25,949 nt of DNA from a virus. A model generated the notes under the pieces. It did no database searches. It was given only the letters and a program-made list of their open reading frames with translations, and had not been told where the DNA came from. Positions 2,434 through 25,949 of the stretch are shown in pieces. The translations under genes and the position numbers were made by a program. Position 1 is the first letter of the stretch; every line of letters begins with the position of its first letter. The stretch is from the IMG/VR virus record IMGVR_UViG_3300027144_000222, positions 1 through 25,949 of that record. One strand, given 5' to 3'.

Positions 2434-2467
2434 TTCTAATAAATATCCTATTGAGCTTGGTTTGGAC

Positions 2468-2475
2468 TATTTATA
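2468..2475 (-). promoter_or_regulatory. T4-type late promoter (TATAAATA) for gp48-gp53
   Basis: The minus strand reads exactly TATAAATA here, the -10 element used by T4-type late sigma (gp55) with the gp33 coactivator, whose gene is in this window. No good TTGACA-like -35 is visible, as expected for a late promoter. It lies 35 bases upstream of the gp48 start. A one-mismatch version on the plus strand (AATAAATA, 2438-2445) precedes gp4 and could serve the rightward unit. A single octamer is weak evidence alone. Its placement before two structural genes supports it. Confidence 0.6.
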
Positions 2476-2495
2476 TGACATACACAAAGGAGACT

Positions 2496-2930
2496 ATGAA
2501 AGGTCTCTACAAAATACAAAATCCTAAAAAGTATATAGGTGATCCTGGTAGAATTATATATCGTTCTAGCTGGGAGCTAAAGTTTATGAAATGGTGCGAT
2601 AGTAATCCAAGTGTATTAGAATGGGGTTCAGAAGAACTGGCTATTCCTTATATTTCACCTAAAGATAATAGAGTTCATCGATACTTTGTAGATTTTTATA
2701 TGAAAGTCCAAGAGAGTAGCGGTAAAGTAAAAAAATACTTAATTGAAATAAAGCCTGCTAAATTTGTTCAGCAGCCGAAAATTCCCGCGAGAAAGACCAA
2801 ACAATTTCTAAATGAAGTTATGACTTGGGGTGTAAATCAAGCCAAGTGGAAGTATGCAACCGAATTTTGCGAAGATAATGGTTGGGAATTTATGATATTA
2901 ACTGAGAAAGAACTTGGAATTAAAGCATAA
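2496..2930 (+). CDS. 4: Head completion protein gp4 (gp50)
   Basis: This 144-residue protein of the gp4/gp50 head completion family is added to the filled head before tail joining; the family has a nuclease-like fold. Diagnostic blocks are RSSWELKFMKWCDSNPSVLE, WGSEELAIPYISP, then HRYFVDFYM, and near residue 80 KKYLIEIKPAKF. The D and ExK residues resemble a PD-(D/E)XK active site. A longer frame opens at 2400, but the ATG at 2496 is preceded by AAAGGAGA at the right spacing, and the product then matches the family's length (T4 gp4 has 150 residues). The extra upstream residues would overlap the gp48 start region. It is the first gene of the rightward structural unit. Confidence 0.92.
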   Translation: MKGLYKIQNPKKYIGDPGRIIYRSSWELKFMKWCDSNPSVLEWGSEELAIPYISPKDNRVHRYFVDFYMKVQESSGKVKKYLIEIKPAKFVQQPKIPARKTKQFLNEVMTWGVNQAKWKYATEFCEDNGWEFMILTEKELGIKA

Positions 2931-11172: not shown

Positions 11173-11517
11173 TTATAGATTAAAATTGATACTTTCTCCG
11201 CAGCCGCAACTACTTGATGCGAGAGGTGCTTGTATTTCGATGACGCTACCAATAATATCAACTTTCTTATTGACGGTACTGCCAATAAGATAGAGTTCAG
11301 ATGGCCTATCTAACCAGAACGTCCAATCATCATACTCTTGTGGAAAGTCATCTTCTATGAGTTCGTCTGCACTCTTTACCAAATCCCACTTGTAGCTGAA
11401 TCCAGCACAGCCGCCACCTGCAAGAGATAGGCGAACACCCAGTGCGTTGTTCGAAACGGAGACATTACGAAAATGCTCAAGTGCGGATTCCGTAAACTGT
11501 ATGCGGTCTTTTATCAT
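11173..11517 (-). CDS. A-type Fe-S cluster carrier (IscA/ErpA/HesB family)
   Basis: This 114-residue protein carries the three invariant cysteines of the family: Cys37 in AGGGCAGFSY and Cys104/Cys106 in SSSCGCGESINF. The spacing C-X66-C-X-C is close to that of IscA. The start at 11517 (MIKDRIQFTESAL) fits the family N-terminus; a longer frame from 11553 would overlap the exonuclease end and is less likely. A-type carriers pass Fe-S clusters to target enzymes. This gene follows the exonuclease by 4 bases and shares its promoter. Four radical SAM proteins, each needing a [4Fe-4S] cluster, are encoded upstream in another unit, so it may serve them (inference). Confidence 0.92.
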   Translation of the reverse strand: MIKDRIQFTESALEHFRNVSVSNNALGVRLSLAGGGCAGFSYKWDLVKSADELIEDDFPQEYDDWTFWLDRPSELYLIGSTVNKKVDIIGSVIEIQAPLASSSCGCGESINFNL

Positions 11518-11521
11518 CAAA

Positions 11522-12190
11522 CTATTTATTACGGCTCGCTTCGAATAAATCACGAGTTTCGATAAGTTTTTTGGCCCAGTTGTCGCGCTTTTCTACGAAC
11601 ACCTGAGGCTCATCGCCATCCACTGCAATCAAGATAACGAGAAAGGGAACAGGAATACCAGTTCGTTCTTCATACATAATTGCATATGCAGCGGTCTGCA
11701 TAAAGTAGGAACTGATATATTCCTTCTTCTTGGGCCGATTAGAAGTCTTAAAGTCGATTACGGCGCGAATACCATTGTATTCTCCGATACAGTCAACTCG
11801 ACCAGCCATACGCAGGAAGTCGCTGTATAATGCCAGCTCTTGGCAGTGAATGTTATCGATAGGTTCAAGAATTGACTTAAACTTAGTAAACATTTCCTTG
11901 TCGAGTAAGGACGCTTTCACGCTATCAAAATCGACTTCTTCATTCTTTAGATATGCTTCGGTAAGTGTGTGTATTTTAGTACCACGAGTAGAAGCCTGCT
12001 TAGAAATGCGGTCGGCTTCTTCTTCACCAACGCGCTCACGCCACTTGTTGATGCCATCTTTATTCAGAACACCGAGAACGGTGGTAGCAGAGGGATAACC
12101 AACACCTGAGGCATTGACATAAACTCTGCTACCATCTTCTCTTGTTTCATCTTGGGCAAAATCGGTATAATCATAGATCGTTTTAAACAT
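11522..12190 (-). CDS. PD-(D/E)XK exonuclease (RecB/MGME1-like)
   Basis: This 222-residue nuclease of the type common in T4-like marine phages has RGTKIHTLTEAYL near residue 70 (the helix with conserved His and Glu), then GRVDCIGEYNG and AVIDFKTS around residues 128-150, supplying the catalytic D...DxK of the PD-(D/E)XK fold, and YFMQTAAYAIMYEE with the QxxxY motif near residue 165. A single-strand or end-directed DNase role in recombination or host DNA breakdown is likely. The N-terminal YVNASGVGYPSATTVLG is also typical of these phage proteins. A strong promoter lies just upstream. Confidence 0.86.
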   Translation of the reverse strand: MFKTIYDYTDFAQDETREDGSRVYVNASGVGYPSATTVLGVLNKDGINKWRERVGEEEADRISKQASTRGTKIHTLTEAYLKNEEVDFDSVKASLLDKEMFTKFKSILEPIDNIHCQELALYSDFLRMAGRVDCIGEYNGIRAVIDFKTSNRPKKKEYISSYFMQTAAYAIMYEERTGIPVPFLVILIAVDGDEPQVFVEKRDNWAKKLIETRDLFEASRNK

Positions 12191-13014: not shown

Positions 13015-13046
13015 AAAAAAGGCGACACTGCAATTGCAGTGTCGCC
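13015..13046 (-). terminator. Intrinsic terminator ending the long radical SAM operon
   Basis: A perfect 26-base palindrome at 13021-13046 (GGCGACACTG, centre CAATTG, CAGTGTCGCC) is followed on the minus strand by TTTTTT (13015-13020). It lies between the 182-residue gene and PhoH and would end transcripts coming from the promoter at 22860-22888. Confidence 0.93.
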
Positions 13047-13111
13047 TAGTGCCGAGGGAGGCACGATGGATTCGGGAAGAGAAATCGGTATTACTGTCTT
13101 CATGTAGTTAT

Positions 13112-13660
13112 TTATTGAGTTGCGTCTCTCCACCACTCAGGAATTTCACGATTTTTCCATTTTGCCATATTATTTTTTGCACCAACATAATAGTTACGAT
13201 ACGACTGTAGAGAATCGCCTTGTACCTTATATTCGTCAGGCATAGCAGGTGTCGGTTGTGTTAGATGACTTACAGGAATATTTTTTGGGGGCATGCGAAG
13301 AAAATAAACTAGCCGGTCAGTGGCATGGATTTTACCATAGCGATGAGTGTATTCTGTAAGAAGAGACTGGAATAGACACATAAGCCAGTTATAATTATTG
13401 TTAGACTGACGAACCCAGATAGCACTCGGATGATTGATGTGTGTCGCTTTGTAGAGAACTGTTTCAAGGGTGTTATCTTCCATACGCCAGCGTTTGATTG
13501 AACGGCCATTAGCAGTTTTATCTAGGTATTGTTCACCGTCGATTACGCGATGTGCAGTAGATAACAGTTGTGCATATTCTAGGATCATCTTAACGACATG
13601 CTTGTCATTATGATATTCAGCACATTTGGAAACGTCACGATCCAAATAAAAGATATTCAT
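13112..13660 (-). CDS. Conserved phage protein of unknown function (182 aa)
   Basis: This 182-residue protein has a clear conserved-looking layout: MNIFYLDRDVSKCAEYHNDK, then HVVKMILEYAQLLSTAHRV, later HINHPSAIWVRQS, YTHRYGKIH and PQ-type MPDEYK, ending MAKWKNREIPEWW. I have the impression of a family widespread in tailed phages without assigned function. The His/Lys/Cys-rich N-terminal helix could be catalytic, but no known motif matches. It follows the 90-residue gene by 6 bases and is the last gene before the operon terminator. Confidence 0.8.
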   Translation of the reverse strand: MNIFYLDRDVSKCAEYHNDKHVVKMILEYAQLLSTAHRVIDGEQYLDKTANGRSIKRWRMEDNTLETVLYKATHINHPSAIWVRQSNNNYNWLMCLFQSLLTEYTHRYGKIHATDRLVYFLRMPPKNIPVSHLTQPTPAMPDEYKVQGDSLQSYRNYYVGAKNNMAKWKNREIPEWWRDATQ

Positions 13661-13666
13661 GATATA

Positions 13667-13939
13667 TTAACTTTCTTCAATAGATTCACGTATGCAGCGT
13701 ATATGCTCTTTTGCTACATTTGATATTATATCAGATTCCCTCGCAATGTCAAGACATTCTATAACTTCAATTGGGTCCATTTCTAATAAATCGTCCATCA
13801 TCTTTCTTTCTGGTGTAACTCCGAAAGCATTGACGCAAAATAAAACAAGCTCCACATCGGCATCCGTATACAATGGTATACGATAGCGTCTAGGTTCCTT
13901 GCGAAACTTGTCCGGGAACTTTAGAATATTATCAGTCAT
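13667..13939 (-). CDS. Small hypothetical phage protein (90 aa)
   Basis: This 90-residue acidic, helix-rich product starts MTDNILKFPDKFRKEPRRYR and contains MMDDLLEMDPIEVIECLDIA. It has no recognisable domain, signal or membrane segment. It starts 11 bases after the carbamoyltransferase stop and ends 6 bases before the next gene, so it is embedded in the operon. The spacing makes it credible, but function is unknown. Confidence 0.65.
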   Translation of the reverse strand: MTDNILKFPDKFRKEPRRYRIPLYTDADVELVLFCVNAFGVTPERKMMDDLLEMDPIEVIECLDIARESDIISNVAKEHIRCIRESIEES

Positions 13940-13950
13940 GCTAATATTTA

Positions 13951-15384
13951 TTAGGAAAAGACTTTTACGGCATATTTCGCTTCAAAATTATCCGCATCCT
14001 TAAAGTTATTTACCATTGGCATACCCTTGATATTGAGACTTGTATTCAATAGCATTGGACAGCCGGTTTCTTCATACCATCTACTAAGAAGTTCATATAG
14101 ACCAGAGTGTTGCTCTTTTGTCACAGTTTGGACGCGACTTGTGCCATCAGCATGGACAATAGCAGGAAACAAATCAGGATATTTACATCTTGAAGTATAT
14201 TGCATATAAGGGGAGTCTTCCCATGACATTTCAAAATAGTCTCTCGCATGTTCCGCCAAAATAACTGGAGCGAATGGACGAAATTGTTGACGCTTTTTAA
14301 TGGCATTTACTTTATCCTTAATATCATGGCCCCTTGGATCAGCTAGAAGACTGCGATTGCCTAATGCTCTGGGACCAAATTCAGCTTGACCATTTGCAAC
14401 ACCCACTATACCAGTATTTCGCAATTCTGTCAACAGTTTTTCTACTGGATATTCTCCTCCCATATCTGCACCCAGATATGGACCTTTCCAGTTCAATTTT
14501 TGTCTGTTGTTAGCTGCAATCGCTCCCAAGGAACTGCCTGCATCACCAGGATTTGGCATAATCCATACATTCTCAAAATACTTTCGTGCAATATGATTTG
14601 CACTACAGTTTAGCGCACATCCACCCATAAGAACGAGATTGTCTTGAGAGGCGTCTTTCATTTTTGCTCGTATTAGTAGTTTTTCAAATTCTTCTTCATA
14701 GACTTTTTGAGTTGCTGTGGCGACACTATAAATGTTCAGGTCGCTGTCATTGGGTCGCCACCAGCGACATCCGCGATGTAGGTTCTCAGATTTCCAAAGA
14801 TTTTTTACTTCGTCATAATACTTTTCGGGGTCACCATATGCTACCATTCCCATTAAGATATATTCATCTTCGTTTGCTTTTAGACCAATACGGTCAGTCA
14901 TAGCAGAATAGAACAGTCCCAAAGACTTGGGGTAGTCCATAGACCATTTCTTTTTCAGTTTACTACCAGAACATTTCCAGACTGACGCAGTATCGAATTC
15001 ACCGATAGCATCGATAACAAGAGCGGTTGCATTATCATACGGCGAAGTATAGAAGCCAGCTGCGGCATGCGATTCATGATGAAATGCAAATTCTACCGGA
15101 ATATCTTTTAGACCAAAATGTTCAAGATATTGCCTGACACTAAACCGAACTAATCCCTGGCCTGCCAGCAGCCTTCTCATTGCCCTAAGTTTAGGCTTTT
15201 CATACCAGTGTATCTTGTTTGGTTTACCAAACTTCAAAGCAGCATGAATCAAATCAGCATTTAAGTCTTTATCATTCTTGATACCAGAATATCTTTCCGC
15301 ATGTGAAGCAAACAGAATTTCATTTCCGAAAACAACAGTCAAAGACGCATCATGCACGGCGGCGGATATACCCCATTCAATCAT
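13951..15384 (-). CDS. Carbamoyltransferase, NodU/CmcH/TobZ family
   Basis: This 477-residue enzyme has the two-domain layout of NodU-type O-carbamoyltransferases, which move a carbamoyl group from carbamoyl phosphate, via carbamoyl-AMP, to a sugar or other hydroxyl. The N-terminal Kae1-like part has GISAAVHDASLTVVF, the metal-binding FHHESHAAAGF and ALVIDAIGEFDTASVW; the middle has LVLMGGCALNCSANH; the C-terminal part has GQAEFGPRALGNRSLLADPR and RPFAPVI. The ATG at 15384 is preferred over a TTG at 15417: it overlaps the upstream mini-ORF by 8 bases (ATGATTGA), like the other junctions of this operon, and gives the typical family start. It is the last enzyme of the radical SAM operon. Confidence 0.95.
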   Translation of the reverse strand: MIEWGISAAVHDASLTVVFGNEILFASHAERYSGIKNDKDLNADLIHAALKFGKPNKIHWYEKPKLRAMRRLLAGQGLVRFSVRQYLEHFGLKDIPVEFAFHHESHAAAGFYTSPYDNATALVIDAIGEFDTASVWKCSGSKLKKKWSMDYPKSLGLFYSAMTDRIGLKANEDEYILMGMVAYGDPEKYYDEVKNLWKSENLHRGCRWWRPNDSDLNIYSVATATQKVYEEEFEKLLIRAKMKDASQDNLVLMGGCALNCSANHIARKYFENVWIMPNPGDAGSSLGAIAANNRQKLNWKGPYLGADMGGEYPVEKLLTELRNTGIVGVANGQAEFGPRALGNRSLLADPRGHDIKDKVNAIKKRQQFRPFAPVILAEHARDYFEMSWEDSPYMQYTSRCKYPDLFPAIVHADGTSRVQTVTKEQHSGLYELLSRWYEETGCPMLLNTSLNIKGMPMVNNFKDADNFEAKYAVKVFS

Positions 15385-15481
15385 AGATAAAGGGGTCCTG
15401 TTTTCGAAGATACTCAATACGTTTCTTCATCTCTTTTTTGGCGCGATATGCTGCAAAGAATTTTTTTATAAATTTAATCAT
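15377..15481 (-). CDS. Mini-ORF before the carbamoyltransferase (34 aa)
   Basis: The ATG at 15481 overlaps the SGNH hydrolase stop as ATGA (15478-15481), and the TGA stop overlaps the carbamoyltransferase ATG. The product is strongly basic and amphipathic: MIKFIKKFFAAYRAKKEMKK and then RIEYLRKQDPFIYD. It may be a real small partner of the transferase or only a translational bridge that keeps ribosomes moving. The perfect fit into two overlaps favours translation. No family is recognised. Confidence 0.6.
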   Translation of the reverse strand: MIKFIKKFFAAYRAKKEMKKRIEYLRKQDPFIYD

Positions 15482-16269
15482 TGGATTATATTCCCGTCTT
15501 TTAACCTGTTATAAACTAAATCTGCAAACTTGATATGATATTCCACCTTAGGGTGTCCCCATCCATGGGTGGCTTGCTTATATGGAGTATCTCCATATGT
15601 ATCAGAAAAAGATACATCTCTTCCTAATAAATGTTTAAACCGCATATTAGACAGCCACGATATGCCCGGAGGAAATGAACGTTGAAGCATATTATTCCAA
15701 GAATATACAGTTGTAACCATCTTTATTCTTCCGCCAAAAGAATCCGAAAGAAGGTCTAGATATTTTAGATGTTTCGCATGTTCCCAAATAATATTGTTAT
15801 TAGTTCCCCATGTTGCAACCATAAATTCATAAACTTCTTTAGACGGCCAATGTTTTGGTAAGGACAACATTTTAGTTTCCATATAATTATCGCCGCTGGA
15901 TAAAATAGAGAATCTAGTAGGACAAGTTACTCCTACAATAATTAAATCGTTATCTCGAATAAGACCCTGTTCAATGTCATGGGTTAGTCTAAAAACCGCA
16001 TCGGCAAGACTTGTGCCTAGATAGGCACGATTCCAATAAGAAACATCTATTTTTTTCGCAAGATGTGTCGGCCAAGAAAAAGTTAAAGAATGGTCATCGC
16101 ATTTCTTTTGCATTTCTCGTGTCGGATAGATGGCTTCGCGATTCAAGACTCCTGCGTTCACTTTTCTCTTATCCAATTGATCTACATTGATTTGCAAAAT
16201 TTCGGCGTCCCCAAGTTCTTGTCCGGCAGTAAATGAGCAACCATAGGATACTATTCTATCGATTTTCAT
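15478..16269 (-). CDS. SGNH-hydrolase-like protein
   Basis: This 263-residue protein has block I near the N-terminus (IVSYGCSFTAGQELGD, Ser in the GxSxTxG position), a second segment NRAYLGTSLADAVFRL with Gly/Asn character, DNDLIIVGVTCPTRF, and a C-terminal THGWGHPKVEYHIKFADLVY containing the terminal His. These fit an SGNH/GDSL-type esterase or acetyl-transferring enzyme, though the usual DxxH is replaced by a GHPxxxxH arrangement. The start at 16269 is chosen because it overlaps the radical SAM stop as ATGA. It may acylate or deacylate the pathway's product. Confidence 0.72.
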   Translation of the reverse strand: MKIDRIVSYGCSFTAGQELGDAEILQINVDQLDKRKVNAGVLNREAIYPTREMQKKCDDHSLTFSWPTHLAKKIDVSYWNRAYLGTSLADAVFRLTHDIEQGLIRDNDLIIVGVTCPTRFSILSSGDNYMETKMLSLPKHWPSKEVYEFMVATWGTNNNIIWEHAKHLKYLDLLSDSFGGRIKMVTTVYSWNNMLQRSFPPGISWLSNMRFKHLLGRDVSFSDTYGDTPYKQATHGWGHPKVEYHIKFADLVYNRLKDGNIIQ

Positions 16270-17474
16270 ATATTTTTTGCCCAAGGATGCGTTTGAAATA
16301 AATTCTGATTTCTGATTTTATCTAATAACAGTTGCTTAGACACAAACTGCTTTTGCAAGTGAATATTTGTTAAGTTTTTTCTATTTCCATCTAAAAATGA
16401 AATAGTTTCCTGTAACGCCCATCTATTAATACCCATATTTGGCAATTCTTTTTTCATTTCAAGTAAAAATTCTTCGTAGTCTTTTTCCGGCATAACATCC
16501 GGCTGCAAGAAAACTGGAAAATCAACTGTATGAATTTGAACTTTCAAGTTCTTACTATCAGCCCATCGTAATAACGGTATCATCGCAGGAACTGATAAAT
16601 TTTGTAATGTAGAACTAATACCACATTCTATAGTATCCGTAGTTTCTGTTTGTGTGAGTAAAAGATCAAAGTTTTTTTCTATAGTTTCCCATTTAGCAGG
16701 ATTTCTAATATACTCATAGTAATCATAAATTCCATCAATACTAACATTAAGCTGAACCTGCTTAAACTTTTTCCATTGAGTAATAAATTTAGGTCTGAGG
16801 GTAATTCCATTGGTGTTGTATATTAATCTAACTCTAGAACTAACTCCAGAATCTACTAGATAATCTAATAGGGTTTCATGAGCATCAATTATTAAAGGTT
16901 CGCCGCCAATCAAATAAATCTCTCGGACAGTATTCAGGTGTGGTTTTAGCAATTCTTGCATGTCAACAACATCTACCCAATCATCTGGTTCACCGAATTT
17001 GCCGTAGTATTCTTCAGATTCTTTATGAGTAGTGATCTCTTTGCTAATCAAAGAACTACTCCAGGGTGCACACATTCTACAGCGTAAATTACATTTTCTA
17101 CCTAGGTCAAATTCAATTCTTTGGATTCCTAGGGGTTCAGGAGTATTAGTCTCATTAATATAATCGTAAGTATCAGGAAATCTTTGATTTATCATTTCAC
17201 GGAAACTTTGCATACCAGAATCTTCCATTTTCCAGCAGCGATTGCAAATAGGATTTCTTTCTCCTGCAATCATTCCTTTCCGTAATTCTTTATGAGTATG
17301 ATTATTTAATAAGCTATCTGTAGTGTAATCCTTCTTTGTTGTAATCATTGCCGTCACATCCGGCGTCTCTTCAATTCTGGCATTAATCGCATTGCAACAT
17401 GGCCGCAAATTACCCATAGAACCGACGCTAAGAAGTGTCCAAGGATATACACAGATAGTTTTACCATCAGACAT
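16266..17474 (-). CDS. Radical SAM protein D with N-terminal twitch-like Cys domain
   Basis: This 402-residue radical SAM enzyme has the SAM/[4Fe-4S] motif CNLRCRMC at residues 128-135 and a GGEPLI motif downstream (YLIGGEPLIIDA). Before the core it carries Cys8 (ICVYPW), Cys26-Cys27 (NLRPCC) and Cys77/Cys80 (CNRCW), which could hold an auxiliary cluster; in most SPASM/twitch enzymes such cysteines lie after the core. SIDGIYDYYEYIRNPAKW matches the usual 'D.....R...W..' strand. It overlaps the upstream radical SAM gene by 8 bases and the SGNH gene as ATGA. The substrate is unknown. Confidence 0.9.
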   Translation of the reverse strand: MSDGKTICVYPWTLLSVGSMGNLRPCCNAINARIEETPDVTAMITTKKDYTTDSLLNNHTHKELRKGMIAGERNPICNRCWKMEDSGMQSFREMINQRFPDTYDYINETNTPEPLGIQRIEFDLGRKCNLRCRMCAPWSSSLISKEITTHKESEEYYGKFGEPDDWVDVVDMQELLKPHLNTVREIYLIGGEPLIIDAHETLLDYLVDSGVSSRVRLIYNTNGITLRPKFITQWKKFKQVQLNVSIDGIYDYYEYIRNPAKWETIEKNFDLLLTQTETTDTIECGISSTLQNLSVPAMIPLLRWADSKNLKVQIHTVDFPVFLQPDVMPEKDYEEFLLEMKKELPNMGINRWALQETISFLDGNRKNLTNIHLQKQFVSKQLLLDKIRNQNLFQTHPWAKNI

Positions 17475-18744
17475 CGTTTTGTTCTCGTTCTTCTTTTCTC
17501 ATCATACTTCTTTTGGTTGTCCCAAGTTCACCCTGATCTAAATTATTATATTCTTCCCCACAACATGCACTACATTGATGACTTCTCAGTTGATGTCCTT
17601 TGGTAAAACTAAGGGGTAAAAATTTCTGATATAATGGAGAAGCGATAATATCTTCTAATTTATTATGATGGAGTGAGATGGATTTCATTCCTCCGTTCAA
17701 TTCAATCATTTTTTTAGATGAATCATTTTTATTAAAATCAGTATTTGCTCTCCACTGTTCTCCACCAAGAAAACAACAGGGATAAACATTTCCTGCACCA
17801 TCAACAAAGATTTCGTTTAGATGAAAATATTTAGATTGTTTTGCTCTACAAATTATGCCTAAAGTATTATGCGGAAATACAATCCATTTTTTATTTTGAT
17901 TATCATAAACATGCATATTTTGCTTTGCTTCCGGATCAGGAAGAAGTCTATTAAATTCGTCATCCGTAATAAATTGAGGAATTAATCCAAACTGTCGTTT
18001 AAATTCAATAGAGTTTTCATTTTGAAATTCCTCGTTCACCGGTTGTCGTAGAGTGTGTGTTACGACACCGTCTTTGTATACATCATACAACCCTCTACCA
18101 TCATCATCAAAGGAGTTCCAACGGGTTGTTTTTTTCACATTGAAAAAATGAAATCCAAGATCATCTGCAATTTTCTTAGCTTCGTCTACCTGATGTTCGT
18201 TATGTTCAAAGACAATGTAGTCCCATCTTGCTTTACCGCCTGCCGCAGTATATGCTTTCATATTTTCGTAAATTTTTTCGAAATTTGTATTTCTGCGATA
18301 TAGGTGATTGGTGTCCCATAATCCATCCACAGAAAAAATCACATAATCATCACGAGAGCCATCTGGACCACCGTTCATTATGGTAGCGAGTTCTTCCCAC
18401 CAAGACGCCGGACGGGCACTACCATTTGTGTGAATTACTAGACCGACTTTATCATTGCACTCCCGAATATATTTGTATATTTCCAGTGTGTCTTTTGCTG
18501 CAATAGGGTCACCATAATTTCCGCATGAATAAATTCGACGCATTTGTTTTAAGTATTCTGGCGAAAACCAACTTTTAAATTGCTGTAAAGTAATTTCTGT
18601 CATTGGAAGAATTGGATTGATATCAGAGCCTTGTCCAATATGTCTAGGACACATAGGACAAGCAGCATTACATCTCGTAGTAATTTCCAAATGCATCGCT
18701 GTCAAATCTTTATATGTCTCGTATAGAGGTTCAATTTGCATCAT
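17467..18744 (-). CDS. Radical SAM/SPASM protein C
   Basis: This 425-residue protein has its cluster motif very near the N-terminus, CNAACPMC at residues 25-32 (TTRCNAACPMCPRH), and a C-terminal SPASM-like region with FVDGAGNVYPCCFLGG and QCSACC, preceded by IICRAKQ. This is the conventional order, unlike the other three. Other landmarks are SCGNYGDPI and FSVDGLWDTNHLYRRNTNF. It may initiate chemistry on a peptide or sugar-like substrate; SPASM enzymes often act on peptides. AAGGAT precedes the ATG at 18744; a second ATG follows immediately. It overlaps radical SAM B by 14 bases. Confidence 0.92.
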   Translation of the reverse strand: MMQIEPLYETYKDLTAMHLEITTRCNAACPMCPRHIGQGSDINPILPMTEITLQQFKSWFSPEYLKQMRRIYSCGNYGDPIAAKDTLEIYKYIRECNDKVGLVIHTNGSARPASWWEELATIMNGGPDGSRDDYVIFSVDGLWDTNHLYRRNTNFEKIYENMKAYTAAGGKARWDYIVFEHNEHQVDEAKKIADDLGFHFFNVKKTTRWNSFDDDGRGLYDVYKDGVVTHTLRQPVNEEFQNENSIEFKRQFGLIPQFITDDEFNRLLPDPEAKQNMHVYDNQNKKWIVFPHNTLGIICRAKQSKYFHLNEIFVDGAGNVYPCCFLGGEQWRANTDFNKNDSSKKMIELNGGMKSISLHHNKLEDIIASPLYQKFLPLSFTKGHQLRSHQCSACCGEEYNNLDQGELGTTKRSMMRKEEREQNDV

Positions 18745-20122
18745 TAATATCCTTGCACATATAATAAAATTCCGCGTATTCGGGAAATAGTTCCAGAAGT
18801 CCTAGTCCAGGAGTTCTTCTATCATATTCAGTAAAGAATTTATAAAAGTCTTTTCTACCCTGTTGAATAAGTTCGGGTGTTATTTTCGGGCCGCCAGTTA
18901 CAAAATAGTTTCGAAGACGCTTCATCTTTTCCCACTCATGTTCATTGAACCCAGATCGCGGACCGTGTTGTGTTATATTATCTTTAATGAACTGCATATC
19001 ATCATCAAAATATGATACCCACTCCGGGGGTAAGAGATTAATCATCCAATGAGGCGGTTCTTTCAAATACGGCGTATCAAAACCAATTCTTTCTTTACCC
19101 CACTTGTGGCGAAGTTCTAGAATTTTTTCCAGAAAAGGTCTAAAAGAAGCGACACATAGAATGTTGTAGGTACACATTACGGATATGGAAACATCTGGAA
19201 CAGTCGAAAGATATGTTTCAACATTCTTTAACCATAAATCTTGACTTAGCCCACGGCGCATATATTCTGCTTTGGGGCCCCAGGACTCAAGGCTAGTGTA
19301 TAGTCTAAATGTCTTAATCTTTTTGCTCTCAATCATAGTCTTTACAGATTCGGCAAACTTAATTACCCTATTATTCGAAACTCCTAGATTACTGTTTAGG
19401 TTAAGTTCTAGATGGGAAGTATCATCTCCCGCTTCTATCAATTTGAATAGTTTCATTGTATTAGGATTAATAAGTGCTTCGCCCCCCGTAAGACGCAAAA
19501 CCTTCAAATCTTTCTTTAGATCGGGCCACCATTTCCAGAATGCTTCCACATACGGATTATCTTCGTCGTCTGCATATACTTTTGTGGTTTCTAGATATTC
19601 GATACCGTATTGATTATAACTAATGTCATAGTTACCATGTTCTTTAATTTCTTGCTCCCACAATGAAGATGCTTGGGGACAACAGTAACCGCACTTGAAA
19701 TTACAACCGTTGCCGAAACTAACTTCTAGAAAATATGGATTGAAGTCGGCATCCCAAGGAATATTACGAATACGCTCGGTTTCTTCCGCGGCATTAATCC
19801 AATGACTTGCGTTATGAAACATTCTATCACTAAAATTTTCGCCAGGAAGATTCTCGACATTCCAGCAATAATAGCATTCTTCCGGGCGGCCGCCCTCCAG
19901 CATAATTTTGCGCTGTTGCTTTTTCCACTTTGTGTTGTGAAGAGCGGATGGATTTTCGGCAATTTCTTCTAGAGGAATACGCTGTGGTCGAGGATGATAA
20001 CAACTGTGATTATCGCCCGATTGAAGATATAAAGTTTCATGTCTCCATTTTTGCAGGCAAAAACCATTACCCACAGTATTCAAGGTGTCTCGAACAGCCC
20101 TAATATGGTCCAAATTAGACAT
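18731..20122 (-). CDS. Radical SAM protein B (twitch-type, paralogue of A)
   Basis: This 463-residue protein starts MSNLDHIRAVRDTL at the ATG at 20122, which has AAGGAT upstream and lies 2 bases after the stop of A. A GTG at 20140 is in frame but less likely. The N-terminal cysteines are Cys22, Cys41, Cys83 and Cys86 (FCLQKW, HSCYHP, CYYCW), and the radical SAM motif CNFKCGYC is at 140-147. The block NPYVEAFWKWWPDLKKDLKV with LTGGEALI is shared almost word for word with A. The C-terminus ends LFPEYAEFYYMCKDINDAN. A and B are clearly tandem duplicates that diverged. The substrate is unknown. Confidence 0.92.
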   Translation of the reverse strand: MSNLDHIRAVRDTLNTVGNGFCLQKWRHETLYLQSGDNHSCYHPRPQRIPLEEIAENPSALHNTKWKKQQRKIMLEGGRPEECYYCWNVENLPGENFSDRMFHNASHWINAAEETERIRNIPWDADFNPYFLEVSFGNGCNFKCGYCCPQASSLWEQEIKEHGNYDISYNQYGIEYLETTKVYADDEDNPYVEAFWKWWPDLKKDLKVLRLTGGEALINPNTMKLFKLIEAGDDTSHLELNLNSNLGVSNNRVIKFAESVKTMIESKKIKTFRLYTSLESWGPKAEYMRRGLSQDLWLKNVETYLSTVPDVSISVMCTYNILCVASFRPFLEKILELRHKWGKERIGFDTPYLKEPPHWMINLLPPEWVSYFDDDMQFIKDNITQHGPRSGFNEHEWEKMKRLRNYFVTGGPKITPELIQQGRKDFYKFFTEYDRRTPGLGLLELFPEYAEFYYMCKDINDAN

Positions 20123-20124
20123 GC

Positions 20125-21777
20125 TTATAAATCCTTGCACTTATTATAAAATGTGAGTAGTTCAGGAAAAGTGTTCGCAAAGGAAGTATTGCGCCTTCTA
20201 TCCAACTCATCGACATATTGAGAAAATCTTTTCATATCAGTATTTAGACGACTTGGTTCCATTACTTGACGCATGATGTCCAGGTCTCTACGGACTTTGT
20301 CGATTTCATACTGTTTAAATCCCCGAAAACTAGTAGAATAATCATCACCCTGAATATTTTTTTCCATGAATTCTACGCTTCGTTCTACCATAGATATCAT
20401 GCCTGCGTCTGCCAATTTTATACTTAACCAACTTGGAGTATGCAGAATAGGAATATCAAACCAGATTTTTTGGCTTTGAGGACTAACTATTTGTTTTTTG
20501 CCGCTTACATCGTAGACCACTTCTGGCTGCTTATCATAGGCAAATTCTTCTCGTAAGTCAAGAACCCATTCTAGAAAATTTTGTAGTTTTGGGATGCTTA
20601 AAATATTAAAAGTATTAATAAGTGTGATATTAGTGCAGTGAGTTTCCCTCAAGAAAGTTCTAACGTTTGAATCGAGCCTATCGAAATCCATACCGGTTCG
20701 AATATATTCCGCCTGCGACCCAACACTATCACAGCTTACAAATAAAGAAAAATGCTTCATTACCGGAGCAATGCAATCAAACTCATAAGAAAATCCACCA
20801 TCAGTCAAACTTCTTCCGGTTTCTGTCAATTCTGGAATATTTTGTGATTCCATTGACGGCAATTCGCTACGATAAAGCCGCTTATTCTTATCGCCAATGA
20901 TATAGTGTTGCCATTTAGTCCATTCGGTTCCATTTTTGGGATCAGGCACATAACATTTTACCTTATGTGGTGCCGTTTCCAGCTTTTTAACTTGAGTTAA
21001 AAACTTATCAAACAATTCTTGTTTCGGTGGACACAAATTGCTTGTGATACTTAACTCCAGTTCTGGATTTGGATTTTCATACACATAATCTAATACTTTG
21101 AATGTATTATTATCCATAAGTGGTTCACCACCCGTCATTCTAAAAATCTTTAGTGTTTTATATAATTCGGGCCACCATTTCCAGAATGCTTCAACATATG
21201 GATTATTTTTGATGGCCATTTTTTTTGGCATCAAACCATATTCTGTTAATGCATTTAGATCATTATGCGCTGCATCCTTAAGAATATAGGGCCCAAATTT
21301 TTCAACTTCTTCCTGCCAGGAAGTGCTAAGATGAGGAGAACAGTAAACACATTTAAAATTACACGCCTGATTAAAATTCACCTCAACATAAGCAGGTGTG
21401 ATTGTCTTATCTAGTGTTTTATTCGTTGCGATTTTTTGAAAATCTGGCTCATTCCACCATTCGCTACTACGATAATGTCTATCGCTGGTGTGTCCGGCAT
21501 CCTCAATTCTCCAGCAATACGAACAACCCGACGGACGTTCACCTTTGCGCATCTTTTCACGTTCTTGAATTTTCTGTGGTGTATTATGAAGTAATCCGGG
21601 ATTTTCTGCTAATCCTTCAAGAGGAATATCATGTGTAGGAGGATGATAGCAGCTATGAGTTTTACCATTGGTTAAGTGTAAACTTACCATATTCCATTTT
21701 GCCAAGCAAAATGAAGAACTAACCGCGTTGAGTCTTTCCTTCATGGCCTCTGCCGACTCTTTATATTCGCCACTCAT
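20125..21777 (-). CDS. Radical SAM protein A (twitch-type, long paralogue of B)
   Basis: This 550-residue protein has the same layout as B: Cys24, Cys43, Cys85 and Cys88 before the core (FCLAKW, HSCYHP, CSYCW), CNFKCVYC at 139-146, then PYVEAFWKWWPELYKTLKIF with MTGGEPLM. It is about 87 residues longer, largely because of an insertion near residues 250-330 (around TEWTKWQHYIIGDKNKRLYR) and another near 420-440. It ends FPELLTFYNKCKDL, like B. The ATG at 21777 overlaps the 26-residue ORF stop as ATGA. Together with B it could form a heterodimer or handle successive steps. Confidence 0.92.
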   Translation of the reverse strand: MSGEYKESAEAMKERLNAVSSSFCLAKWNMVSLHLTNGKTHSCYHPPTHDIPLEGLAENPGLLHNTPQKIQEREKMRKGERPSGCSYCWRIEDAGHTSDRHYRSSEWWNEPDFQKIATNKTLDKTITPAYVEVNFNQACNFKCVYCSPHLSTSWQEEVEKFGPYILKDAAHNDLNALTEYGLMPKKMAIKNNPYVEAFWKWWPELYKTLKIFRMTGGEPLMDNNTFKVLDYVYENPNPELELSITSNLCPPKQELFDKFLTQVKKLETAPHKVKCYVPDPKNGTEWTKWQHYIIGDKNKRLYRSELPSMESQNIPELTETGRSLTDGGFSYEFDCIAPVMKHFSLFVSCDSVGSQAEYIRTGMDFDRLDSNVRTFLRETHCTNITLINTFNILSIPKLQNFLEWVLDLREEFAYDKQPEVVYDVSGKKQIVSPQSQKIWFDIPILHTPSWLSIKLADAGMISMVERSVEFMEKNIQGDDYSTSFRGFKQYEIDKVRRDLDIMRQVMEPSRLNTDMKRFSQYVDELDRRRNTSFANTFPELLTFYNKCKDL

Positions 21778-21854
21778 AGAGTTTTACACCAATCTAAAAA
21801 TTCGCTCATTTCAGGAAAAACTTCATCGCCACGTTGGTTCTCATCATTGCTCAT
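21774..21854 (-). CDS. 26-residue mini-ORF resembling the C-terminus of radical SAM A/B
   Basis: The ATG at 21854 overlaps the methyltransferase stop as ATGA, and the TGA stop overlaps the radical SAM A ATG as ATGA. The product begins MSNDENQRGDE and ends VFPEMSEFLDWCKTL. That end aligns with the last residues of A (FPELLTFYNKCKDL) and B (FPEYAEFYYMCKDI), and its MSN start matches B. The simplest reading is a third tandem paralogue reduced by in-frame deletion to its ends. Alternatively it is a free tail peptide with a role of its own. Expression is likely from the coupling. Confidence 0.65.
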   Translation of the reverse strand: MSNDENQRGDEVFPEMSEFLDWCKTL

Positions 21855-22414
21855 TTAAATCCCACCGCCATGTATCTATAAAAATGTCCGCACTTCAGCA
21901 TACCTGCATACTGTGGATCTTTAATACTGTTGATTGTTAAGAATTCTTCTAGATTATCAGCAATACGAACATGCTCAGGATTAACTAGATTATTTCCTTG
22001 CACGATATATTTAGTCCCCGTAGGAATGGAGTTCCACCAAGCATCATAAACTTCTTGTGTCACATGTTCGGAACTGGTATTGATAACTAAATCGGGATAT
22101 GGATAATTTAGTGGCATACCATTTCGCATGTCGTGCTGACGGAATGTGATATCGTGATAGCACTCATCGATAGCAGCAAATACCTTTTTACATTCAGAGT
22201 CGATGTCCGTGGTTAGAATTTTCGCATCAGGAAACTTGTGGGCAATAAACTGTGCAAGAACTCCGTACCATCCACCAAAAATTACAATAGAGCTATCAAG
22301 AGGAGTTACATGTTCCAGTAACCATTTCTTACTTTCGATCTGACTATCCCAAAAGTTCTCAGAAAATCTGTATGCATTTTCTGGATTATTACGGATATAT
22401 TGCATCCATAGCAT
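21851..22414 (-). CDS. Class I SAM-dependent methyltransferase-like protein
   Basis: This 187-residue product starts at the ATG at 22414 (MLWMQYIRNNPENAYRFSEN), 13 bases after the upstream stop. A longer frame exists but would run into the conserved upstream gene. The Rossmann-fold motifs are SSIVIFGGWYGVLAQFIAHK (motif I in a degenerate GGWYG form), AKILTTDIDSECKK (acidic residue that binds the ribose) and PDLVINTSSEHV (motif IV region). The rest includes VNPEHVRIADNLEEFL and HFYRYMAVG. It may methylate the pathway product or an intermediate. It is the first enzyme gene of the radical SAM operon and overlaps the mini-ORF. Confidence 0.8.
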   Translation of the reverse strand: MLWMQYIRNNPENAYRFSENFWDSQIESKKWLLEHVTPLDSSIVIFGGWYGVLAQFIAHKFPDAKILTTDIDSECKKVFAAIDECYHDITFRQHDMRNGMPLNYPYPDLVINTSSEHVTQEVYDAWWNSIPTGTKYIVQGNNLVNPEHVRIADNLEEFLTINSIKDPQYAGMLKCGHFYRYMAVGFK

Positions 22415-22427
22415 TACAACATCAAAA

Positions 22428-22829
22428 TTAACCACGGCGCATCTTCGCAATCTCCAAAATTTGTTCATCATTGATAACAGGCACAGCATTACTCTTATGT
22501 AGAACACTGATGCCCTTGATAAGTGTGCCCGTATAGACTTTTTCTTTACGAGTATAGTTTACACCAATACCATCGCCAGAAGGATATTTTTGCCGGTGGT
22601 CACTGACTTCATATTTAGGCAGAGGTGTACCACGCAACTTGGGTTTATAATTACCTTGACGATATTGCACATATTCGTCGAAGGTCTTGGTGGTTGAACC
22701 GATGCGCTTCATATGCTTGTTGTATTCTACCCAATCCTGGGAATACCGTGCAGTCACACCTTTGTTAGAAGTCTTGCGCTTCTTGGTGTTAGTGGTAGTG
22801 AAAGCATGTGACATAAGTTGCATAGACAT
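22428..22829 (-). CDS. Conserved T4-like phage protein of unknown function (133 aa)
   Basis: This 133-residue basic protein has the blocks YSQDWVEYNKHMKRIG, TKTFDEYVQYRQGNYKPKL, YEVSDHRQKYPSGDGIG and the C-terminal LHKSNAVPVINDEQILEIAK MRRG. I have the impression of a family common in T4-like phages without an assigned role. The ATG at 22829 has AAGGAT 9 bases upstream and lies 31 bases downstream of a strong promoter -10, so it is probably an early gene. It leads the long operon that contains the radical SAM genes. Confidence 0.82.
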   Translation of the reverse strand: MSMQLMSHAFTTTNTKKRKTSNKGVTARYSQDWVEYNKHMKRIGSTTKTFDEYVQYRQGNYKPKLRGTPLPKYEVSDHRQKYPSGDGIGVNYTRKEKVYTGTLIKGISVLHKSNAVPVINDEQILEIAKMRRG

Positions 22830-22859: not shown

Positions 22860-22888
22860 CTTATACCCTATTACGGTAGATATGTCAA
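22860..22888 (-). promoter_or_regulatory. Strong sigma70-like early promoter for the radical SAM operon
   Basis: On the minus strand TTGACA (22883-22888) and TATAAG (22860-22865) are separated by exactly 17 bases, with AGGG directly before the -10. It is divergent from the promoter at 22923-22951, and both share the nine bases TAGGGTATA around the -10. No other promoter of comparable quality is seen until the terminator at 13015. Confidence 0.85.
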
Positions 22889-23170: not shown

Positions 23171-23340
23171 TGTCTACATCTATTCACGATCAGGAACTCG
23201 ATGAGCACTTCGGTCGAGTTGAAAGCGAACTCAACACACAAGAAGTAACAGAAACTCCTGTTGTGTTTTTCCGATTCAACGAGGAAAAGGACAACCCACT
23301 ACTTACTTGGCCGTGGCACGGTAAACCCCATCGAAGTTAG
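23170..23340 (+). CDS. Small early protein (56 aa), overlapping the cyclase end
   Basis: The ATG at 23170 overlaps the previous stop as TAATG. The 56-residue product begins MSTSIHDQELDEHFGRVESE and ends TWPWHGKPHRS. It runs 38 bases into the 3' end of the adenylate cyclase gene on the other strand. No family is recognised. Translational coupling and the shared promoter support it; the convergent overlap without an obvious terminator is unusual. Confidence 0.68.
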   Translation: MSTSIHDQELDEHFGRVESELNTQEVTETPVVFFRFNEEKDNPLLTWPWHGKPHRS

Positions 23341-25354
23341 CAGGAGGTTCGCCCTCCATGCGCTCTAGCATCATGTCATAGTAATTTACCAACTCTCCTT
23401 GCCAGCACTTCTTTAAGTCGCTGGCAAACTTTTTAGCAACTTCCCAGTTTCCGCTACGGTAAAATCCTAAGAATTTCTTATGTTGTAATTCGCCAGCAGC
23501 ATCAAAGAACGGGAATGCTGTATATATTCTAGCAGGTTCTGTCTTACCCTTCACAGCAATCAGATCAAGTTCTACTACTTGGTATACATCCCCAACCAAT
23601 TCGGCAGTTTGCGGTCCGAGGACGAGTTTGACTCCATAAGGTTTGGATTGACCTTCCAAACGAGCAGCCAGATTAACGCCATCACCCAAGCAAGTATAGT
23701 CAAAACGCTGAGTGCTGCCCATATTACCAACAACCACAGTGGCAGTGTTAATACCAAGACCCATCCCAAAAGCGGGCACACCTTCTCCTTTAATTTCGTC
23801 ATTGAAAGTCTCCAAATCTTTTAGCATCTGAAAGGCAGTTCTTACTGCATCTAACGCATGTTTATTATTATCCAACGGTGCATTCCAGAATGCCATCTGA
23901 GCATCGCCGATATACTTGTCTAGTGTTCCCTTGTTCTCAAGGATTGCTCTTGTCATCACTGTCATGTAGCGATTCATAATCTTTGTCAGACCTTGAACAT
24001 CTTCTCCGTAGTGTTCCGAGATAGTTGTAAAACCACGAACGTCTGTGAACATAATCGACAGTTCTCTAGAGTCACCACCAAGTGTCAGAAGTTCTGGTTG
24101 TCTTTGTAACTGAGCAACGAGATCTGGTGACAGATAGGTTCCGAACTGTTTCTTAATTTGCTGCTTCTGTAGATATTCAGAAATATACTTCGCGGTAAAG
24201 ATGTGAATGTAGATAAGAGCAATAGCAAATATGTTAAATGTTACATCGAACAGAATACCTTTGCTTGCGAACAGATAAACAGGTAGATAGAAATATCCAC
24301 CGAGTAAAACAGCAATATAAATTATAGAGAATTTAAAACGCGAAAGAATAATCAATGCCAGAGCAAGACCAAGAAAAGCCGCAAGATCCGCAAGTTGACT
24401 CCACACAGGAATCGACACAGAGTCTCCATTTATCAGAGTTTCAAGAATACTCGCCTGAAGGACGTGGGGATGTTGCGCACCTGATGGAGTCGCTACAGGG
24501 TTCGCAATTCCAGCAGCAGTTACGCCAAGAATTACAATTTTCCCATCAAGACGAGGAATATCAGAACCTAATTCAACAGATGGAAATACGTAATTGGGAT
24601 TAATGAACGTTCTTCCATATTCATCTGTTTTAATGGTTTCAAACGAAGGAATACGTAATGCCTCAACTCCCGTCTGATTTATCTTCGCTTGATACGAAGG
24701 ATCTCCAGCAGCAACACGCAGCATCTCTAGGGCAAATGCGGGATAGTATTCGCCAGATGATTGCGCTAGAAGAGGAACTCGCCTTACGACCCCATCAGTC
24801 TCAGGTAGGGTTGATGTTATCCCAACACCGACAGCGGCTTCTTGAAGAGATGAGATATTACTTAGAACGCATGGATATTGAGGAAGAAATTCGGTTGCTT
24901 CTCCATCGCCGACTACGGCAACGCCTGTTTTCCGAATTGTCGCACTTGCCCGTGAACAAGAGTCGCTTACCGTCTGACTGAGAACAACTGGATACTGATT
25001 TAAGGTATCCGCAAGAACTCGATCAGTCCCCATCCGATCAGACTCAGGCATAAGTATAGTGCTACCAACAAGAGTAGCCCCTCTAGAATAAATGTCGCTA
25101 ATAATTTGAGCATGGACCTCACGTGGAAACGGCCACTGACCATATTTCTCAATTGCTTTCTCCCCAATATTAACAGTTACAATTTGTTCAGATTGCGTCG
25201 GTGAACCGAGCATCAAATAATCATAAAACTTCAATCTTGTGGATTCAACCAAGTATGGGTTTGCTAGTTTTACTGTTAACAATACCGCAAAAGTAATCAG
25301 TGCCAACCATGGCGAGAGTAAAACTTTTTTAGTTTTTTGTATAAGAGTATCCAT
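23303..25354 (-). CDS. CHASE2-domain adenylate/guanylate cyclase (class III), membrane-bound
   Basis: This 683-residue protein has an N-terminal membrane helix (about residues 13-30, SPWLALITFAVLLTVKLA), an extracellular CHASE2 sensor (about 40-300, with FYDYLMLGSP, YGQWPFPREVHAQIISDIYS, DGVVRRVPLL, GKIVILGVTA), three membrane helices (about 318-395) and a cytoplasmic class III cyclase domain (about 430-590). The catalytic motifs are intact: IMFTDVRGFTTISE with metal-binding Asp, LDKYIGDAQMAFWNAP with the second Asp and the purine-contacting Lys, and FDYTCLGDGVNLAARLEG with the catalytic Asn and Arg. The protein should make cAMP (or cGMP) in response to an external or periplasmic cue. The upstream curlin-like gene overlaps it by 26 bases, so the two are coupled. 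Confidence 0.95.
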   Translation of the reverse strand: MDTLIQKTKKVLLSPWLALITFAVLLTVKLANPYLVESTRLKFYDYLMLGSPTQSEQIVTVNIGEKAIEKYGQWPFPREVHAQIISDIYSRGATLVGSTILMPESDRMGTDRVLADTLNQYPVVLSQTVSDSCSRASATIRKTGVAVVGDGEATEFLPQYPCVLSNISSLQEAAVGVGITSTLPETDGVVRRVPLLAQSSGEYYPAFALEMLRVAAGDPSYQAKINQTGVEALRIPSFETIKTDEYGRTFINPNYVFPSVELGSDIPRLDGKIVILGVTAAGIANPVATPSGAQHPHVLQASILETLINGDSVSIPVWSQLADLAAFLGLALALIILSRFKFSIIYIAVLLGGYFYLPVYLFASKGILFDVTFNIFAIALIYIHIFTAKYISEYLQKQQIKKQFGTYLSPDLVAQLQRQPELLTLGGDSRELSIMFTDVRGFTTISEHYGEDVQGLTKIMNRYMTVMTRAILENKGTLDKYIGDAQMAFWNAPLDNNKHALDAVRTAFQMLKDLETFNDEIKGEGVPAFGMGLGINTATVVVGNMGSTQRFDYTCLGDGVNLAARLEGQSKPYGVKLVLGPQTAELVGDVYQVVELDLIAVKGKTEPARIYTAFPFFDAAGELQHKKFLGFYRSGNWEVAKKFASDLKKCWQGELVNYYDMMLERMEGEPPANFDGVYRATAK

Positions 25355-25949
25355 TACATGGTCCAGTTGTGCATGTTATTTCCATTTTCGCAGAGTCGGT
25401 GGCAGTCAAGTTATTTTGTGTGACAGTTACACCGATTCCAGGACTATTTAGTAAAAGTTGAAATTGCTTTGCAAAAGCACCTATTTGAGTAACAGATGCA
25501 GTAACTCCACCGAATGGTGCGCTGATATCTAAAAAGTGGTTAGCACTTCCTTGTTGTAAGGTACTGATATTATTAGAGTTTCCTAAAGCATTGATAAACA
25601 ATGATTTTCCTCCAGCATCTTTTTGTTGTGCTGAGATTTGATTGCCTAAACCATTAGTGATTATCTCGGCATATTTGCTGCCTTGTTGTTGTGTTAAGGA
25701 GACTACGTTGTTATTACCAGTAACTGAAACTTCTGCCAAGTTCTTACCGATTGGAGTTGTTGTCGTTCCTTGGTTGATAGTAACACTGTTGCCGCTGCCA
25801 TTAATCGTCATTGCTTGCGCACCATTCACGCCACGAATTTGATTCTGCTTAGAGAACTGTTCGATGTAAACAGAATTACTAGAACCAGTTACGTTGAGGT
25901 AAATGGAGTTTTGTGTAATCGCATTTGTTTGATTAATCTTCAATGATTG
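25329..25949 (-). CDS. Curlin-like / beta-repeat protein (partial, 5' end outside window)
   Basis: The frame is open to the window edge, and the apparent TTG start at 25943 is probably not real, since codons continue beyond it. At least 206 residues show degenerate repeats of about 20-23 residues with Asn-x-(Val/Ile)-x-(Ile/Leu)-x-Gln, for example GSGNSVTINQG, GNNNVVSLTQQQG, GNQISAQQ, NSNNISTLQQG, VTASVTQIG and GVTVTQNN. This resembles CsgA/CsgB curli repeats (Q-G-N ladders), so a secreted amyloid-like or adhesive product is likely. The C-terminus ends CTTGPCNGYSYTKN, with two cysteines. It overlaps the cyclase start. The N-terminal signal cannot be seen. Confidence 0.75.
   Translation of the reverse strand, partial: QSLKINQTNAITQNSIYLNVTGSSNSVYIEQFSKQNQIRGVNGAQAMTINGSGNSVTINQGTTTTPIGKNLAEVSVTGNNNVVSLTQQQGSKYAEIITNGLGNQISAQQKDAGGKSLFINALGNSNNISTLQQGSANHFLDISAPFGGVTASVTQIGAFAKQFQLLLNSPGIGVTVTQNNLTATDSAKMEITCTTGPCNGYSYTKN

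Follow-up and report, generated by a model that had tools for sequence, protein, structure and literature searches.

What would a virus make with four radical SAM enzymes that are encoded in one operon together with a carbamoyltransferase, an SGNH-fold protein and a probable methyltransferase, and which molecule would be modified? The operon (Table 1) lies in a stretch of 25,949 nucleotides, hereafter the window, that spans positions 1 to 25,949 of the IMG/VR virus record IMGVR_UViG_3300027144_000222. We consider it somewhat probable that it is a virus-encoded glycan-tailoring pathway, with four radical SAM enzymes (A, B, C and D) as its virus-specific core.

Source virus and operon structure

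The window comes from a T4-like, pelagimyophage-type virus, in which T4-like gp32 (57% to that of HTVC008M), gp59 and PhoH are present; in close relatives (contigs of L003 and L006) gp23 scores 453-471 bits. An earlier note on this DNA described a single, tightly coupled minus-strand unit, and every gene junction it quoted reads as claimed on that strand: ATGA at 21851-21854, 21774-21777, 16266-16269 and 15478-15481, a 14-base overlap at 18731-18744, and 8-base overlaps at 17467-17474 and 15377-15384. Equally real are the promoter and the terminator, the strongest of the region, with its 12-bp stem and T run at 13020-13047. A sigma-70 promoter with a 12/12 match and an extended -10 sits inside p90 (13752-13725), so that the last gene, p182, can be transcribed separately. 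Probably p182 is not part of the pathway; in HTVC008M and Melnitz it is linked to PhoH without the cassette.

Table 1. Features of the operon and its surroundings, in window coordinates.
Feature	Position	Strand	Basis
A-type Fe-S carrier (IscA/ErpA family)	11173-11553	minus	PF01521 E 2e-9, above cut-off
Intrinsic terminator	13015-13047	minus	12-bp stem, then T run
p182, phage DNA-binding protein (phrog_624)	13112-13660	minus	phrog_624 E 2e-56
p90, contains internal promoter, probably outside pathway	13667-13939	minus	relatives keep it between CARB and p182
CARB, NodU/TobZ-type O-carbamoyltransferase, 477 aa	13951-15384	minus	Carbam_trans_N E 6e-36, _C E 2e-52
pep34, small basic protein ending DPFIYD	15377-15481	minus	C-terminal motif homologues in 6 other window-like loci
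SGNH-fold protein, Ser-His type	15478-16269	minus	AF2 pLDDT 91.9; Foldseek
D, N-terminal-twitch radical SAM enzyme, 402 aa	16266-17474	minus	NF033640 304 bits; D clade
C, radical SAM/SPASM enzyme, 425 aa	17467-18744	minus	Radical_SAM and SPASM above Pfam cut-offs; C clade
B, N-terminal-twitch radical SAM enzyme, 463 aa	18731-20122	minus	NF033640 282 bits; 571 IMG/VR relatives
A, N-terminal-twitch radical SAM enzyme, 550 aa	20125-21777	minus	NF033640 306 bits; A clade
pep26, in-frame deletion scar of A'-B' radical SAM pair	21774-21854	minus	end matches to L002 proteins
MT, probable class I SAM methyltransferase	21851-22438	minus	Methyltransf_25 weak match E 0.006; class I motifs
p133, first operon gene (phrog_27048)	22428-22829	minus	phrog_27048 E 2e-16
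Sigma-70-type promoter TTGACA-17-TATAAG	22860-22888	minus	sequence; same promoter before homologous gene in L006

The radical SAM core

The assignment of four radical SAM enzymes and a carbamoyltransferase is borne out by HMM scores above the Pfam or NCBIfam cut-offs. The curated cut-off of NCBIfam NF033640 (N_Twi_rSAM), 170 bits, is exceeded by A, B and D, while C scores only 44 bits. The CxxxCxxC motif is intact in all four enzymes and kept in 182/182 radical SAM proteins of the compared loci, a pattern that argues for active enzymes. For none of the NF033640 members did the literature searched give a product, substrate or activity. B has more than 100 invariant alignment columns and a predicted structure with an AF2 pTM of 0.86, and its likeness to solved structures, in sequence and fold, is limited to radical SAM barrels of a generic kind, those of lysine aminomutase, viperin, MoaA and BlsE. 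No match reached E <= 0.001, so that its reaction is not readable from them. We also rejected a defence viperin, as the PADLOC viperin matches are weak and cover the radical SAM core only.

A and B are an orthologous pair, found together in all 40 dereplicated viral loci (52-83% identity), directly adjacent in 35 of them. Their genes overlap in most cases, and C and D usually come next. The A clade is represented once per locus, the C clade occurs in 37 of these loci and the D clade in 34. This supports the earlier proposal that coupled genes form a pathway for the biosynthesis of some decorated molecule: the A-B(-C-D) core is not scattered across the relatives and is conserved as a block in two genomic contexts, with modular decoration genes at its flanks. 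When an independent search was started from the neighbouring glycosyltransferase-like gene, A and B were recovered in 44 of the 47 loci with room for them. The carriers are many uncultured aquatic relatives of phage T4. IMG/VR holds 571 relatives of B, which was not found in 84,980 cellular genomes, apart from one 5.5-kb MAG contig, or in any isolated phage.

Radical SAM enzymes come at a high cost, demand much iron and are sensitive to oxygen. Since from four to about 22 of them are kept with all motifs intact, the product must be valuable to these aquatic phages; the upper figure is that of one contig, which also encodes a UDP-glucose/GDP-mannose dehydrogenase and a 2OG oxygenase. An A-type Fe-S carrier, found in 5/25 related contigs (incomplete ones), is possible support for Fe-S enzymes by its co-occurrence, and not a rule.

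Accessory enzymes

The methyltransferase call holds in part, as the class I motifs are present and the HMM match is weak. The MT gene starts at a GTG near 22438, overlapping p133; homologues occur in 28 loci, the one in L006 being 91% identical and in the same position. Homologues of p133 lie upstream of the cassette in L001-L004, L006 and L064. The SGNH-like call had no HMM support, but the fold confirms it, with carbohydrate esterase CE2 (2w9x), TesA and PatB as the nearest solved folds in Foldseek. Ser12 and His239 are invariant in 21 homologues; the catalytic Asp expected three residues before the His is missing, with Gly236 in its place, and we therefore do not claim esterase activity. 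The modelled fold, closest to carbohydrate esterases and also near PatB, would count for a glycan substrate.

CARB is complete, with a Kae1-like N domain and a YrdC-like C domain that both exceed the Pfam cut-offs, and its HHxxHA, GPRALGNRS and FRPFAP motifs align with GdmN. It reaches only 136 bits against the nodulation protein NodU (NF041651, cut-off 1000) and is thus not called NodU. Its PDB matches are GdmN, NovN and TobZ. The sequence resemblance to NovN and TobZ, which act on sugars, suggests a sugar substrate as well; GdmN-type carbamoyltransferases act on non-sugars, which counts against it. The GdmN match, to an enzyme that acts on a polyketide, would also fit a cassette that makes a free metabolite or cofactor-like compound acting in the host cell, and natural-product clusters commonly combine methylation, carbamoylation and radical steps. 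However, no PKS, NRPS, terpene synthase or aminocyclitol synthase that would build a scaffold is visible in the operon, and relatives instead add sugar enzymes and glycosyltransferase-like genes, making such a compound very unlikely.

Genomic context and small open reading frames

In most relatives the block lies downstream of glycosyltransferase-like genes, calls that are weak HMM matches (GT8-like genes included) or depositors' names, and is preceded by tail-fibre-like genes. The tail-fibre-like neighbours, and the fact that characterised SPASM and twitch radical SAM enzymes act mostly on peptides, would fit a RiPP-like modification of a phage protein, such as tail-fibre subunits or the 34-aa peptide of the operon. 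In the window lineage, however, tail-fibre genes do not adjoin the block; in one clade the block is convergent to a glycosyltransferase-like operon and does not run with the tail genes; and no RRE/PqqD domain was found in any operon protein.

Two tiny ORFs of 26 and 34 codons, implied by the overlaps, had been left unnamed in the earlier note, which saw no RiPP precursor. That view holds for pep26, rejected as a precursor because each of its halves corresponds to one end of an A'-B' pair that has been lost: NDENQRGDEV is identical to the N-terminus of A in L002, and FPEMSEFLDWCKTL aligns with the C-terminal end of the additional B there (score 64 against a shuffled maximum of 37). In L006 and L064, MT and A overlap and leave no room for pep26. 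It holds less well for pep34, whose C-terminal DPFIY is invariant across 7 window-like loci and which is, on this conservation, a weak candidate precursor. The motif was not found in the glycosyltransferase-linked loci with the same A-B core, and tblastn gave no credible match for pep34 in isolate phages. Taken together, protein or peptide modification appears rather unlikely to us.

Proposed pathway and target

A modified base in the virion DNA is a further conceivable product, as some phage DNA hypermodification pathways employ radical SAM enzymes and QueE or QueC occurs elsewhere in T4-like relatives. The window, however, shows neither an enzyme for base hydroxymethylation nor a base glycosyltransferase, and the company of the block is tail and carbohydrate genes rather than genes for nucleotide modification; we regard this product as extremely unlikely. 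The earlier note had left the target open among sugar, peptide and nucleotide, and among a host molecule, the virion and DNA; a sugar is now favoured by the glycosyltransferase-like genes, UDP-sugar dehydrogenase and sugar aminotransferase of the relatives. Against it counts that, in contigs of 108-117 kb, the window lineage lacks the glycosyltransferase-like genes that the other lineage has.

In the glycan-tailoring pathway that we favour, A and B would share one sugar unit as substrate and act on it sequentially or as a pair; their 5'-deoxyadenosyl radical would allow C-H chemistry such as oxidation, deoxygenation or epimerisation. Further radical steps would be carried out by C and D with auxiliary Fe-S clusters in their twitch or SPASM domains, the clusters possibly being supplied by the phage A-type carrier. 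After the radical steps MT would methylate and CARB would O-carbamoylate hydroxyls, and an acyl group may be added, moved or removed by the SGNH protein.

The early-type promoter noted before stands for the window lineage: in L006 the same TTGACA-17-TATAAG precedes the same first gene, although the p133 homologue is only 64% identical in protein. It does not stand for the whole system, as equivalent operons across the family carry a sigma-70 promoter in 14/28 cases and a T4 late promoter in 12/28. T4-late motifs within the window were considered and do not account for the operon. Because promoters are split between early and late, timing cannot identify the target, and the split offers a natural experiment that could show at what stage the product is required. 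The conserved sigma-70 promoter and the lack of tail or glycosyltransferase genes beside the window-lineage operon point to host envelope polysaccharide as the probable target in this lineage, which would be altered, for example, so as to exclude competing phages. Virion fibres may be decorated by the same chemistry in lineages with late promoters, in which tail-fibre and glycosyltransferase-like genes precede the block.

It is possible, and we propose it tentatively, that this is a virus-only system whose A-B-C-D core makes a glycan or fibre modification of no known cell, and which has grown through duplication to about 22 enzymes, shrunk through in-frame deletion and switched between host-type and late promoters. 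If the glycan assignment is true, a large and unexplored set of enzymes that modify sugars by radical chemistry is to be found in these phages, along with a new means to alter host surfaces or virions. As a clean marker, the A-B pair can be cloned and tested, and carriers can be tracked by it.

Comparison with known systems

That such phages carry many radical SAM genes is already reported; the core of four conserved enzymes, its apparent restriction to viruses and the switch of promoter type seem not to have been described so far. One paper described radical SAM cassettes in the host recognition cluster of pelagimyophages (PMC7029224), another T4-like environmental genomes in which Fe-S carriers accompany as many as 12 radical SAM genes (PMC5332604). 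As far as the consulted parts of these papers go, their phages resemble that of the window in being T4-like and aquatic, with several radical SAM genes and an Fe-S carrier; they also have GT8 glycosyltransferases and curli genes, and no conserved four-enzyme core, virus exclusivity, operon structure or function is named there. Of the NF033640 family, shared by A, B and D, the A and B clades occur here only in viral sequence. The gtrA/gtrB/gtr membrane glycosyltransferase trio of gtr-type serotype conversion is absent among the operon proteins.

The Schizotequatrovirus-type Vibrio phages KVP40 and K566 are also T4-like, and in them several radical SAM genes lie close together. These are 21-26% identical to D; B has no match, A only a 26% partial match, in K566, and the neighbours in KVP40 include QueC and NadV, not a carbamoyltransferase. 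Cultured Pelagibacter phages carry smaller forms of the cassette together with sugar enzymes. Pelagibacter phage Mosig EXVC030M (MT647606; Mosig_00082-00094) does, like the window, hold carbamoyltransferase, methyltransferase and radical SAM genes together, C being 28% identical to Mosig_00084. Its cluster differs in having short radical SAM proteins, nitroreductases and no A or B; its DegT-type sugar aminotransferase, in this company, supports glycan tailoring. In Pelagibacter phage HTVC008M (NC_020484), gp155-gp164 likewise form a tight unit with a methyltransferase, a NodU-like carbamoyltransferase and radical SAM, some 8 kb upstream of p182-PhoH. Where the window has four radical SAM enzymes this phage has one, gp158, which is not annotated as such and falls outside NF033640. 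It also differs from the window in its 2OG oxygenase, UDP-glucose dehydrogenase and annotated glycosyltransferase, and the latter two, encoded together with the radical SAM, methyltransferase and carbamoyltransferase genes, again support a pathway that tailors glycans.

Conservation of the radical SAM core

The minus-strand operon of the window (Table) contains four radical SAM genes, A, B, C and D, and the overlaps between its genes that the earlier note had named were all correct when checked on the sequence. B has 571 relatives in IMG/VR, and the best 80 of these, dereplicated by shared protein identity, gave 40 groups, the window included. Across these loci, whose contigs are incomplete and whose gene calls are mechanical, A adjoins B in 35 and is separated from it by one gene in 5, with the genes mostly overlapping. 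A and B are a clean orthologous pair. C and D usually come after A-B, in varying order. When 182 radical SAM proteins were placed in one tree, four families were resolved; every one of these proteins keeps CxxxCxxC. Because the loci were collected through B, the recurrence of A, C and D constitutes independent evidence. In a separate, independent entry via the neighbouring glycosyltransferase-like gene, 47 loci extended over 6 kb past that gene, and A and B were present in 44 of them.

The window, a 25.9-kb virus record, has a near-identical contig in IMG/VR (L007/L081), and its gp32, gp59, PhoH and exonuclease reveal kinship to Pelagibacter phage HTVC008M and Methylophilales phage Melnitz. 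A gene for a TnsA-like protein sits among its phage structural genes. B was absent from the isolate phages searched and, in a non-exhaustive scan by two peptide patterns, occurred in one cellular assembly only. The assembly is a flavobacterial MAG, in which a contig of 5.5 kb (L093, CANHSL010000125.1) bears B together with an SGNH gene, D and C. The radical SAM genes on this contig are 67-74% identical to the phage copies, which argues that it is probably misbinned phage DNA.

Features of the window and of a cultured relative
Feature	Location	Strand	Description
Minus-strand unit	22829 to 13112	-	p133, MT, A, B, C, D, SGNH-fold protein, 34-aa peptide, CARB, p90, p182
26-codon ORF	21774-21854	-	Fusion of N-terminus of lost A' to C-terminus of lost B'
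34-50-aa basic protein family	window 15377-15481; L001, L006, L064, L072, L074, L075		C-terminal K/R-x-DPFIY plus D, P or R
TnsA-like endonuclease N-terminal domain protein	2400-2930	+	PF08722, E 2e-23
HTVC008M gp158	NC_020484 126811-128181		Radical SAM enzyme, PF04055, E 1e-11

Expansion, deletion and genomic context

Radical SAM genes number from 4 to about 22 per contig, the largest set (about 22) lying within a 36-kb stretch of L013 (IMGVR_UViG_3300007609_001002, 13.2-49.5 kb) alongside a UDP-glucose/GDP-mannose dehydrogenase, a 2OG oxygenase and a B12-binding radical SAM protein. Genes have been lost as well. The 26-codon ORF just before A contains NDENQRGDEV, the N-terminus of a lost A' and identical in L002, and retains ATGA couplings on both sides; it is the scar of an in-frame deletion of a whole A'-B' pair.

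In most relatives, the order runs from tail-fibre-like genes through a gene of 116 aa, two GT8-like genes, one gene of 197 aa and a glycosyltransferase-like gene of 305 aa to A-B-D-C. Several of the glycosyltransferase names used here come from weak matches or from depositors' annotation. In the window lineage (window, L002, L005, L006, L064, L074), the block adjoins p182 and PhoH and is in most cases accompanied by MT, SGNH and CARB, and those glycosyltransferase-like genes were not found in its contigs of 108 and 117 kb. Both arrangements occur together in the record of L080.

The operon of glycosyltransferase-like and radical SAM genes opens with the 116-aa gene, and the promoters before this start (e.g. 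L067:1748, L016:4860) were compared in 28 loci. In 14 of them the promoter is of the sigma-70 type, matching at 10-12 of 12 positions and with a spacing of 17 throughout; in 12 there is instead a T4-late motif, ATAAATA or CTAAATA, between -31 and -35; no locus of the 28 has both. Upstream of the other genes the two tests were almost silent. This operon start is thus the site of an evolutionary switch between early and late expression. The sigma-70 promoter of the window lineage is kept in L006. A consensus promoter also lies within p90, making p182 separable from the operon.

Immediately upstream of the radical SAM operon, the minus strand (23303-25949) encodes a CHASE2-adenylate/guanylate cyclase and a curlin-repeat-like protein, as do the regions upstream of the cassette in L002 and L006; relatives further have CsgG, a curlin-repeat protein and FecR. 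These genes are the curli operon that HTVC008M and Melnitz are known to carry, and the window has part of it. Published accounts describe csgA/csgB as lacking, but curlin-repeat proteins are present here.

Enzymes and possible function

A, B and D score above the threshold set for the twitch-domain radical SAM family NF033640 of NCBIfam, and C has a Radical_SAM domain with a C-terminal SPASM domain. The structure model of B (pTM 0.86) matched only generic radical SAM barrels in the PDB, and its closest viral models are radical SAM proteins from uncultured phages. The SGNH assignment comes from structure prediction: the model is confident (pLDDT 91.9), and its matches are carbohydrate esterase CE2, TesA and the peptidoglycan O-acetyltransferase PatB. 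The Ser and His do not vary among 21 homologues, but the Asp at position His-3 is missing. CARB has both domains of NodU/TobZ-type carbamoyltransferases and matches GdmN, NovN and TobZ. MT is a probable methyltransferase, with weak support.

Earlier papers describe a T4-like environmental genome with up to 12 radical SAM genes and Fe-S carriers (2017; PMC5332604) and radical SAM cassettes in the pelagimyophage host recognition cluster, for whose GT8 enzymes host O-chain modification was proposed (2020; PMC7029224). The window fits both: it encodes an A-type Fe-S carrier and part of the curli operon. Relative to the literature searched, several findings are new: a core of four families that is nearly absent from cells, the definition of the operon, the switch of promoters, the growth to about 22 genes and the deletion scar.

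What does the operon do? The main rival reading is protein modification. Some cassettes encode a family of basic 34-50-aa proteins (Table), whose location within the cassette differs between loci. The target may be the host envelope or the virion: the window lineage looks early-expressed, with its block away from tail-fibre genes; other lineages, some with late-type promoters, have it beside tail genes. We favour glycan tailoring, with moderate confidence, because the cultured relatives HTVC008M and Mosig point to sugars. About 8 kb upstream of p182-PhoH, HTVC008M has a tight unit with an annotated glycosyltransferase, the radical SAM enzyme gp158, a methyltransferase, a carbamoyltransferase, UDP-glucose dehydrogenase and a 2OG oxygenase. 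There gp158, labelled a hypothetical protein in the database, is flanked by the glycosyltransferase and the methyltransferase-carbamoyltransferase. In Mosig, similarly, a DegT sugar aminotransferase, a carbamoyltransferase and a methyltransferase accompany the radical SAM genes.
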